Shown here piece after piece: positions 39,779-54,073 of a stretch of DNA of 64,000 bases. Within the stretch, counting starts at the first letter, position 1. The number at the start of each line of letters is the position of its first letter. The notes beneath the pieces were generated by a model, which was not told where the DNA came from, ran no database searches, and saw nothing but the letters and a program-made list of their open reading frames with translations. The position numbers were made by a program, and so were the translations under genes. The stretch is from Burkholderiales bacterium Ga0077543. GTDB taxonomy: Bacteria; Pseudomonadota; Gammaproteobacteria; Burkholderiales; Burkholderiaceae_C. The DNA lies in assembly GCA_001464055.1 (NCBI GenBank), contig LNET01000117.1, positions 26,134 to 90,133 on the forward strand. The letters are read 5' to 3'.

Positions 39779-39798
39779 CGGGGGCGGGGAAATAAGGT

Positions 39799-39976
39799 GT
39801 CCGTCGTGAGCCGTGAACCGCATTCCTGAACCCTCAGGGAAGTTCAGGTGGGCGAGGTCAGCTGTGCTTCGGGTTCATCTGACGCGAGACGATCACACCA
39901 GCTCAGCAATGTTCCAAGCCCTGGCTCTATGAGCATCGGTCCAAGGAAATATAGAGCTCACGCATTCACGACGGAC
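39799..39976 (-). ncRNA. ssrS: 6S RNA
   Basis: This interval, just after zapA, folds like 6S RNA, which binds sigma70 RNA polymerase in stationary phase. The 5' end GTCCGTCGTGA (39976-39966) pairs perfectly with the 3' end TCACGACGGAC (39809-39799), closing a 178-nt rod. The 3' half has CACCTGAAC-ttccctgag-GGTTCAGG, close to E. coli CACCUUGAACCAAGGGUUCAAGG. The 5' half contains GAGCTCTATATTTCC. TAGAAT (39988-39983) is a -10 exactly 6 nt before the stem start. Strand follows zapA synteny and the E. coli match. Confidence 0.85.
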
Positions 39977-40022
39977 AGGCGCATTCTAGGCACATGCGCT
40001 TGGCCCTGGGGTGCGCTGGATG

Positions 40023-50611: not shown

Positions 50612-52480
50612 ATGGCTCTGCTGCAAATCTCCGAACCCGGCCAGGCGCCAGATCCGCATCAGCGCCGAATTGCCGTGGGCATCGACCTGGGCACCACCCA
50701 TTCGCTGGTGGCTGCTGTGCGCCATGGTCTGGCCGAATGCCTGCCCGATGCGCAAGGACGGGTGCTGCTTCCTTCTGCCGTGCGTTACATGGAGGGCGGG
50801 CGTCGCCAGATCGGCTTCGAGGCGCTTTCTGCTCAGGCTGAGGATGCCGAGAACACCCTGGTTTCGGTGAAGCGCTTCATGGGCCGGCGCCTGGCCGACG
50901 TGGCCGATGTGGGCCGCCTGCCTTACCGCTTCGTCGACCACCCTGGCATGCTGGCCGTGTCCACGCGCGATGGCGAGAAGACCCCGGTCGAGGTCTCCGC
51001 CGAGATCCTGGCCAGCCTGCGCCAGCGCGCCGAGGACACCTTCGACACCGACGAGATCTTCGGTGCCGTCATCACCGTGCCCGCCTACTTCGACGACGCG
51101 CAGCGTCAGGCGACGAAAGACGCCGCGCAACTCGCCGGGCTGAACGTCCTGCGTCTGATCAGCGAGCCCACCGCGGCGGCCGTGGCCTACGGCCTGGACA
51201 ATGGCAGCGAGGGGCTCTACGCCGTCTACGACCTGGGCGGCGGCACCTTCGACATCAGCCTGCTGCGCCTGACCGCAGGCGTGTTCGAGGTTGTGGCCAC
51301 CGGTGGTGACGCGGCACTCGGCGGCGACGACATCGACCATGCCGTGGCCGACTGGGCGCTGGCCCAGGCCGGGGTGGCGTCGTCGGCGGGACTGAGCGCA
51401 CACGACAAGCGTGCCGCGCTGGTGGCGGCGCGCGCCGTGAAGGAGACCTTGAGCGAATCTCTGGTGGCCGCCTGGCAGGTGCCGCTGGACGGCGGCACGG
51501 CGCGGGTGGAAGTCTCGCGTGAACGCCTGGAAGCATTGGCCCGGCCGCTGGTCGAGCGCACGCTGGCGGCCGTGCGCAAGGTGCTGCGCGACGCGCGCGT
51601 GGGCCGCGACGAGGTGCAGGGCGTAGTGATGGTCGGTGGCAGCACCCGCATGCCGCTGGTGCGCACCCTGGTCAGCGAACTCTTCGGCCGCCCAGTGCTG
51701 ACCAACGTCAACCCCGACGAGGTCGTGGCGCTGGGTGCAGCAGTCCAGGCCAATGCGCTGGCCGGCAACAGCCGCGACGGCGAGCTGCTGCTGCTGGATG
51801 TGATTGCCCTCAGCCTGGGCCTGGAAACCATGGGCGGACTGGTCGAACGCGTGATCGAGCGCAATACCACCATCCCCGTGGCCAAGGCGCAGGAATTCAC
51901 CACCTTCAAGGACGGGCAGACGGCGATGGCCATCCACGTCGTCCAGGGTGAACGCGATCTGGTCAGTGAATCCCGCAGCCTGGCGCGGTTCGAACTGCGC
52001 GGCATCCCTCCCATGGTGGCTGGCGCGGCGCGCATCCGCGTCACCTTCCAGGTCGACGCCGACGGGCTGCTCAGCGTCAGCGCGCGCGAGCAGGGCTCGG
52101 GTGTCGAGGCCTCGGTCGTCGTCAAGCCCAGCTACGGTCTGGCCGAAGACCAGATCGCGCAGATGCTGAAGGACGGCTTTGCCCACGCCGAAGACGACAT
52201 GGCCGCGCGCTCGCTGCGCGAAGCCCAGGTCGACGCCCAGCGCATGCTGCTGGCGACGCGAGCCGCGCTGCTGGCTGATGCAAGGCTGCTTAGCAGCGAA
52301 GAGCAGGCCGCGATCGGCGAACTGCTGGCCCGGCTGGAAGCCTTGGCATCGGGTACCGACGCCCATGCCATCGAAGCCGCTGTCGAGGCCGTTGCCGAGG
52401 GCACCGAACACTTCGCCGCTGCGCGCATGAACCAGGGCATCCGGCAGGCGCTGTCCGGCCGCACGCTCGACGAGATCTGA
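50612..52480 (+). CDS. hscA: Hsp70-type chaperone HscA
   Basis: HscA (622 aa) is the specialised Hsp70 that releases clusters from IscU. The ATPase has [61 protein letters not shown] and [22 protein letters not shown]. The substrate domain follows from about residue 390, beginning near [23 protein letters not shown]. It is 12 nt after hscB and 20 nt before fdx. Confidence 0.97.
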
Positions 52481-52500
52481 AGATCCCCCAAAGACGATCC

Positions 52501-52839
52501 ATGCCCATCATCCGCATCCTTCCGAACGCCGAACTCTGCCCCGAGGGCGACACCCTGGTCGTGCCCAGCGGCACCTCGATCTGCGAAGCCCTGCTCGAAA
52601 ACGGCATCGCCATCGAGCACGCCTGCGAAATGAGTTGCGCCTGCACCACCTGCCACGTGGTGGTGAAGCAGGGCTTCAAGTCGCTGGGCGAGATGGACGA
52701 GAGCGAGGAAGACCTGCTCGACCGCGCCTGGGGCCTGACGCCCACTTCGCGGCTGAGTTGTCAGGCCATCGTTTCGAACGAAGACGTGACCATCGAGATC
52801 CCGAAGTACACGATCAACCATGCTCGGGAAAACCACTAG
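52501..52839 (+). CDS. fdx: 2Fe-2S ferredoxin of the isc operon
   Basis: Fdx (112 aa) supplies electrons for cluster assembly. The ligands are in CEMSCACTTCHVVV (three cysteines of the C-x5-C-x2-C pattern) and a fourth in SRLSCQAIVSNEDVTIEIPKYTINHARENH. It is the last gene of the isc operon; no iscX follows. The next 181 nt contain structured sequence but no gene on this strand. Confidence 0.95.
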   Translation: MPIIRILPNAELCPEGDTLVVPSGTSICEALLENGIAIEHACEMSCACTTCHVVVKQGFKSLGEMDESEEDLLDRAWGLTPTSRLSCQAIVSNEDVTIEIPKYTINHARENH

Positions 52840-52885
52840 CCCTGGCGGGCCCGGCTGAAGGCCCGACGGGGTCGGTCATCAGGCG

Positions 52886-52921
52886 AAAAAAAAGGCCCCC
52901 CCGCGGTGAAGCGGGGAGGCC
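52886..52921 (-). terminator. Leftward intrinsic terminator
   Basis: The minus strand reads GGCCtCCCCGC-ttcacc-GCGGGGgGGCC followed by eight T. The stem has 10 pairs with one mismatch. It points against fdx and tsaD. On the plus strand it lacks a U-tract, so it is unlikely to be a normal end of the isc transcript, though the stem may still stabilise that 3' end. Confidence 0.75.
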
Positions 52922-52985
52922 GAGAGGGCTGAAAGCCCTGCTGAGGAGACTGACAGACACCACAAGTGGCGTCGAGTTCCATCAT
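52886..52985 (-). ncRNA. Candidate small RNA between fdx and tsaD
   Basis: On the minus strand three hairpins occur in a row: GACgCCAC-tt-GTGGtGTC (52973-52956), AGGGCT-ttc-AGCCCT (52939-52925) and a GC-rich stem ending in U8 (52921-52886). The last is a strong intrinsic terminator for leftward transcription, although both flanking genes read right. CTCCTC and CCTCCCC are pyrimidine-rich segments able to pair with ribosome-binding sites. No clear promoter was found, and a short ORF ([12 protein letters not shown]) also runs through it. The 5' end is a guess. Confidence 0.35.
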
Positions 52986-53020
52986 GCAATGAACGTGCCC
53001 GCGCTGGGCTGAACGGATTC

Positions 53021-54073
53021 ATGAAGGTTTTGGGTTTCGAATCCTCTTGCGACGAGACGGGCGTCGCCCTGGTCGAGGTGCTGGAAGCTCAGCCGCCGCG
53101 GCTGCTGGCCGACGCGCTGCACAGCCAGGTGGAGATGCACCAGGCTTATGGCGGTGTGGTGCCTGAACTGGCCTCGCGCGACCACATCCGGCGCGTGCTG
53201 CCTTTGGCGCGCCAGGTGATGGCCAGTGCCGGCCAGACCCTGGTCGACGTGGACGTGGTGGCTTACACCCGAGGCCCCGGCCTGGCGGGGGCACTGCTGG
53301 TCGGCGCCGGCGTGGCCGTGGCGCTGGGTGCAGCTCTGGGCCGGCCGACCCTGGGCGTGCACCACCTGGAAGGTCATCTGCTGTCGCCGTTCCTCGCGGC
53401 CGACGCACCGCAGTTTCCGTTCGTTGCGCTGCTGGTGTCGGGCGGGCACACGCAGCTGATGCAGGTCGACGGTGTGGGGCGCTACGCCTTGCTGGGTGAA
53501 ACCATCGACGACGCCGCAGGCGAGGCCTTCGACAAGAGCGCGAAGCTGCTGGGGCTGGGCTATCCGGGCGGCCCCGCGCTGGCACGGCTGGCCGAGCACG
53601 GCGATCCAAAGGCCTTTGCCCTGCCGCGGCCGCTGCTGCACAGCGGCGACCTCGACTTTTCCTTCGCCGGTCTGAAGACGGCCGTGCTCACGGCGCACCG
53701 CAAGCTGGGCGCGGCGCCTGTGGCCCAGCAGATTGCAGACCTGGCGGCGTCCACGCAGGCCGCCATCGTCGACGTTCTGGTGGCCAAGACCCTGCGTGCG
53801 CTGAAGGACAGCGGCAGCCGCCGTGTCGTCGTGGCTGGCGGCGTCGGTGCCAACCTCCGGCTGCGTGCGGCGCTGGATGCCGGCGCGGCGCGGCTCGGTG
53901 CGAAGGTCCACTACCCGCCGCTGCACCTGTGCACCGACAACGGCGCGATGATCGCGCTGGCGGCTGCGCTGCGACTGCAGCACGGCCTGGCCGACCTGCG
54001 TCAGGACGGAGCCTTCGACGTGCGTCCGCGCTGGCCGCTCACCGAAATCAGCCCGGCGGTCTGTGGATCGTGA
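53021..54073 (+). CDS. tsaD: tRNA N6-adenosine threonylcarbamoyltransferase TsaD
   Basis: TsaD (350 aa) transfers threonylcarbamoyl to A37 of ANN-decoding tRNAs, with TsaB and TsaE. It starts [20 protein letters not shown] and contains the metal site [16 protein letters not shown] (HxxxH), [32 protein letters not shown], and a late [12 protein letters not shown]. The usual rpsU neighbour is about 18 kb away. It has a short leader after the candidate small RNA. Confidence 0.96.

Follow-up and report, generated by a model that had tools for sequence, protein, structure and literature searches.

Several bacterial small RNAs, namely GlmY/GlmZ, Qrr and CrcZ, are transcribed from sigma-54 promoters with dedicated activators. 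NrsZ of Pseudomonas and GlnZ of Enterobacteriaceae are RpoN-dependent sRNAs of the NtrC regulon, and GlnZ arises by processing of the glnA 3′ UTR (PMC9731577). The double-hairpin sRNAs of Rfam family RF02278 include ncS27 of Burkholderia cenocepacia (PMC5688073) and S17 of Bordetella pertussis (PMC11722255). The CU-rich sRNAs of Burkholderia (PMC5688073) and S17 (PMC11722255) are described as repressing translation by pairing with the ribosome-binding site. NcS25, also of B. cenocepacia, is about 84 nt long and pairs at the Shine-Dalgarno site, but its authors found no sigma-54 motif upstream of it, and it is unresponsive to nitrogen depletion (PMC10117139). The open-access papers on betaproteobacterial sRNAs that we read report no sRNA transcribed from a sigma-54 promoter, nor did our searches turn up one linked to nitrate uptake. 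Likewise, open-access papers on sigma-54-dependent betaproteobacterial sRNAs and on Rubrivivax sRNAs yielded no description of the sRNA reported here.

The DNA analyzed was a single stretch of 64,000 nucleotides, referred to as the window. A sequence-only reading had proposed an unlisted small RNA on the minus strand between two rightward genes, fdx and tsaD. This proposal was upheld by a conserved sigma-54 promoter, a conserved core and a terminator, all on that strand, and the minus-strand locus is almost certainly a real sRNA gene. The features of the locus are as follows.

52986–52999, minus strand: sigma-54 promoter core GGCACGTTCATTGC, with GG at 52999–52998 (−24) and GC at 52987–52986 (−12)
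52886–52974, minus strand: small RNA, about 89 nt long, its start predicted at 52974 ± 3 by placing it 12 nt past the −12 element
52956–52973, minus strand: 5′ hairpin 1, of the GACGCCAC/GTGGTGTC type, seen in the fold and paired in homologues
52935–52949, minus strand: conserved core TCTCCTCAGCAGGGC, its first part unpaired and complementary to the Shine-Dalgarno sequence GAGGAGA
52925–52939, minus strand: small hairpin 2, AGGGCTTTCAGCCCT, seen in the fold and in homologue pairing
52886–52921, minus strand: intrinsic terminator, stem 52921–52894 (11 pairs, 10 of them G-C), then T8 at 52893–52886
52501–52839, plus strand: fdx, the isc-cluster 2Fe-2S ferredoxin (PF00111), convergent neighbor outside the sRNA
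53021–54073, plus strand: tsaD (PF00814), divergent neighbor outside the sRNA

As predicted from its sequence, the sRNA would resemble NrsZ and GlnZ in being sigma-54-dependent, in lying near nitrogen genes, in ending at a terminator and in presumably pairing with mRNAs. It differs from them in lineage, sequence and locus, in having its own promoter where GlnZ is processed, and in that control by NtrC is here a prediction. By sequence and locus, it is a family separate from NrsZ and GlnZ. GlmY/GlmZ, Qrr and CrcZ have different functions, and no similarity to them in sequence or neighbors was seen. With NcS25, the sRNA shares a betaproteobacterial origin, a similar length and, as predicted, pairing at a Shine-Dalgarno site. 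Like the RF02278 sRNAs, it is short and carries a CU-rich single strand of anti-Shine-Dalgarno type, with a hairpin and then a terminator 3′ of it. In contrast to them, it has another core, an extra 5′ hairpin, a sigma-54 promoter and another locus.

The leftward U8 terminator pointed out in the sequence-only reading was confirmed, with its 11-pair stem and T8 run far above what shuffled sequences gave. Three terminator-like sites were found in 52000–54000 compared to 0.8 in shuffles, and the sRNA terminator was by far the strongest. Covariation in its stem was seen as changes on both sides in 8 of the 11 pairs. Hfq-type sRNAs are characterized by a terminator run of at least seven U, a length that the T8 here reaches, and a T run was retained in most homologues. 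The two further hairpins reported ahead of the terminator on the minus strand were also present (52939–52925 and 52973–52956). Two pyrimidine-rich segments had been reported as well. CTCCTC, within 52949–52940, was single-stranded, whereas CCTCCCC was not free but formed the 5′ side of the stem in the terminator. The minus strand from 52985 to 52886 folded at −49.2 kcal/mol (z = −5.3), a value equaled by none of 200 shuffles, and the plus strand of the region gave a much weaker fold (z = −2.4).

No promoter had been recognized in the sequence-only reading, and a sigma-70 scan found none for the sRNA. A conserved sigma-54 promoter is nevertheless present, which shows that searching for sigma-70 promoters alone can leave a real gene without an apparent promoter. 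The sigma-54 promoter has the form GGGCACG-N4-TTGCA; the minus strand reads GGGCACGTTCATTGCAT, with GG-N10-GC spacing, placing a −24/−12 element directly upstream of the RNA as expected of a sigma-54-dependent sRNA. Of the 31 close homologues left after removal of redundancy, 30 had the perfect box (GGCAY-N5-TTGC), with varying spacer bases, 24–28 nt upstream of the hairpin 1 TGTC. Outside the sRNA promoters, the 467 kb of sequence at these loci contained about 11 such boxes, and thus roughly 2 in 10,000 would be expected by chance in a 10-nt positional window. The window contained three boxes, counting both strands. The predicted start of the sRNA was set by the usual sigma-54 rule, about 12 nt past the −12 element, and lies immediately 5′ of hairpin 1. 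RpoN is encoded in the genome. Going by the promoter sequence, we consider it very likely that the sRNA is sigma-54-dependent. The strict sigma-54 pattern had only four sites in the genome itself, one of them the PEP-CTERM-like gene, and these were no help as a pointer to the activator. That site is a perfect box (L177, G000:C39:32321, plus strand) ahead of a short secreted protein resembling a PEP-CTERM gene.

Homologues were recovered in three ways, by DNA search, by covariance model and by pattern. The DNA search of 60 relatives gave 11 matches besides the window, all with fdx nearby. The core pattern gave 30 records, partly from the same genomes, mainly in Rubrivivax but also in Aquincola, Azohydromonas, Leptothrix and other Burkholderiales; Rubrivivax and Azohydromonas belong to the Sphaerotilaceae. 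The covariance model (R1) picked up the RNA in 39 of the 81 congeneric genomes and in further genera of the same family, but hardly elsewhere. About half of the congeneric genomes sampled had no match; some of these are incomplete, and weak matches are lost at the search filters. R1 matches in other families proved to be plain terminators that lacked both the core and the sigma-54 box, and they were dismissed. A box and core 24–54 nt apart were found in 38 of 401 family genomes, covering 18 genera; a few of the 38 look like chance matches, and the backward control found none in 401. Pattern matches outside the family also look like chance.

The homologues share a common layout of sigma-54 box, 5′ hairpin, unpaired anti-Shine-Dalgarno core UCUCCUCAG(C/U)AGGGC, small hairpin and U-tailed terminator. 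In an alignment of 31 non-redundant sequences (A2), the core TCTCCTCAGCAGGGC was invariant or nearly so, and an invariant TCTCCTCAGCAGGG stretch lay between variable hairpins. The core was largely unpaired in most folded homologues, which gives the UCUCCUCAG segment the unpaired, nearly invariant seed of an Hfq-type sRNA. Pairing was counted under a three-helix structure set by hand. This structure paired 92.6% of cells, compared to 85.7% in shuffles and 42–56% with slid partners, and 51 cells were changed on both sides compared to 18 in shuffles. The hairpins, whose poor conservation would have spoken against an RNA gene, are strongly conserved, with base pairing kept through compensatory changes. 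On the sequence alignment, RNAalifold was misled by misaligned hairpin loops and paired the core in a doubtful way, and its result was set aside. Hairpin 1 turned over in sequence while its pairing was kept (96.6% of cells paired in the 31 homologues), and in other genera a hairpin of unrelated sequence still formed directly 5′ of the core. Leaders with at least six pairs made up 50 of 51 distinct ones, with a mean of −11.3 kcal/mol compared to −5.7 in shuffles. Leader lengths were 23–31 nt and not in multiples of three, which argues against coding.

The genomic neighborhood was examined at 57 loci with core and box, after removal of two cynS start sites that matched by chance. The gene fdx lay downstream on the opposite strand at 43 loci and tsaD upstream at 19, so the isc-tsaD setting is found in only about a third. 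Neither gene was detected nearby at 11 loci. The commonest upstream neighbor was nrtD, the ATPase of a nitrate ABC transporter, which was found on the same strand at 33 loci and was directly adjacent in most. At locus L036, nrtD matches TIGR01184 above its cut-off and is preceded by genes for an NMT1_2 substrate-binding protein and nrtB (TIGR01183, above cut-off); at L041, a gene for a glutamate/aspartate-type binding protein adjoins the sRNA. The sRNA is an independent gene that accompanies nitrogen genes more often than isc-tsaD, and this argues against control of isc in cis and for nitrogen control. In three relatives (L021, L041 and L026), a GAF-domain gene (PF13185) lies between nrtD and the sRNA.

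The commonest 5-mer between the sRNA terminator and fdx was GCACC/GGTGC, with 40 occurrences compared to 10.7 in shuffles (maximum 21). This 5-mer is the half-site of NtrC. It was enriched 3′ of the sRNA in relatives (e.g. L010 and L022) with no fixed dyad spacing, and it was absent from the short spacer of the window (52840–52885). The NtrC palindrome GCAC-N7-GTGC had seven matches where about one was expected, all at +86 to +117. As an NtrC site it is only suggestive, with inconsistent half-site spacing and no copy in the window. On the neighboring genes and these motifs, nitrogen control of the sRNA is favored with moderate confidence. The activator is probably NtrC, although other sigma-54 activators exist.

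Position after the isc operon had also led the sequence-only reading to raise a link to iron or Fe-S control, for an RNA that it called antisense to the isc-tsaD direction. The sRNA does lie opposite the fdx 3′ UTR and the tsaD leader, which would suit a cis-acting antisense RNA controlling isc-fdx or tsaD in Fe-S homeostasis, but it reaches neither coding sequence. No rightward terminator was found downstream of fdx (52840–53020, plus strand), so isc transcripts may read through into tsaD, and such an mRNA would contain the exact complement of the sRNA. Against this reading, there were 11 of 57 loci with neither gene detected nearby, and nrtD was upstream in 33. Core pairing with the start regions of the isc cluster was also ordinary, and random DNA from the window paired at least as well. 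The antisense position thus stands while antisense control of isc is unsupported, and we think such cis control very unlikely; a part for the sRNA in Fe-S control is highly improbable, as the link to iron finds no support in the same loci and pairing. The other possibility raised was a structure of the isc 3′ UTR, in which the palindromic hairpin, which could form on the plus strand too, would stabilize or terminate the rightward isc mRNA and the leftward T run would be incidental. The plus strand has no T run. The T run, sigma-54 box and core all point leftward and are conserved together, and the RNA gene persists at non-isc loci without fdx. This explanation was already disfavored by the conserved promoter, and we give it almost no credence. 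Read-through mRNA from isc, with its exact complement, could also serve as a sponge.

Two further explanations concern what kind of sRNA this is. It could be a diverged copy of the betaproteobacterial double-hairpin "toxic" sRNAs of RF02278 (S17/ncS27), whose scheme of CU-rich single strand, hairpin and terminator it follows. At gathering score, the only Rfam match in the window was 6S RNA (RF00013, 52.4 bits, 39796–39978, minus strand), and the sRNA fits no Rfam family. A relaxed threshold gave it only matches below the required scores, with 17.6 bits for RF02278 (50 required), 26.8 for suhB/mmgR (RF00519, 41 required) and 13.8 for anti-hemB (RF02837, 49.5 required). Eight homologue loci searched at E up to 0.5 gave neither RF02278 nor RF00519; their sole match was anti-hemB at 23.1 bits (L110). 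A bona fide RF02278 RNA lies elsewhere in the genome and reaches 66.4 bits; the upstream sequence that was read showed no sigma-54 box. Kinship with RF02278 is therefore hard to reconcile with the weak score, and we regard it as improbable. The bona fide RNA lies outside the window (L013, G000:C62:63594–63657, plus strand), and a further hairpin precedes it. A more serious alternative is that the sRNA is sigma-54-dependent but outside nitrogen control, under another enhancer-binding protein such as one for envelope, carbon or exopolysaccharide control. No enhancer was identified in the window, and other activators probably act at the PEP-CTERM-like gene with its perfect sigma-54 box. The recurrent nrtABD neighborhood and the enrichment of GCACC half-sites speak against it, and we hold it to be unlikely, if worth keeping in mind.

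The best explanation, in which we have good confidence on the features described above, would be a trans-acting, sigma-54-dependent regulatory sRNA tied to nitrogen assimilation. RNA polymerase with sigma-54 would start leftward from the conserved promoter at 52999–52986, with NtrC or a different enhancer-binding protein as the activator. Starting about 12 nt past the promoter, the transcript would open with a 5′ hairpin that protects it, continue through the unpaired anti-Shine-Dalgarno UCUCCUCAG and hairpin 2, and end at a U-tailed terminator like those that bind Hfq. Hfq may bind through the U tail, and UCUCCUCAG may pair with ribosome-binding sites of the GAGGAGA type, repressing translation. 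That the sRNA acts in trans by pairing appears likely. In most relatives it lies where the nitrate-uptake operon ends, and here it is between fdx and tsaD. A bolder and more tentative proposal is that these sRNAs are an undescribed sigma-54/NtrC-controlled family, widespread in Sphaerotilaceae and related Burkholderiales, that originated at the 3′ end of the nitrate-uptake operon. They could be a main regulator of nitrogen assimilation at the RNA level, and their targets could include the mRNAs of cynS (cyanate hydratase) and of amino-acid uptake genes. The family would offer an RNA arm of nitrogen control in a large environmental, phototrophic group, and its promoter, ends and seed can be tested in cultured bacteria such as Rubrivivax gelatinosus.

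Possible targets were sought by seed match. There was no match to GCTGAGGAGA close to an ATG in the genome itself. Among the 81 congeneric genomes, the genes with GCTGAGGAGA near an ATG were scattered, and they formed small clusters only at cynS (4), leuD (3) and exbD (3). Just 5′ of the ATG, CTGAGGAGA recurred for cynS, leuD, exbD, pntA and an amino-acid binding protein. These seed-matched starts were not separable from plain Shine-Dalgarno conservation, and their counts were near that expectation. The cynS leaders of four genomes (L132, L142, L221 and L240) read CC(C/G)CTGAGGAGAAT(C/T)GCATG, a match of 10–13 bases to the sRNA core, and all four of these genomes carry the sRNA.
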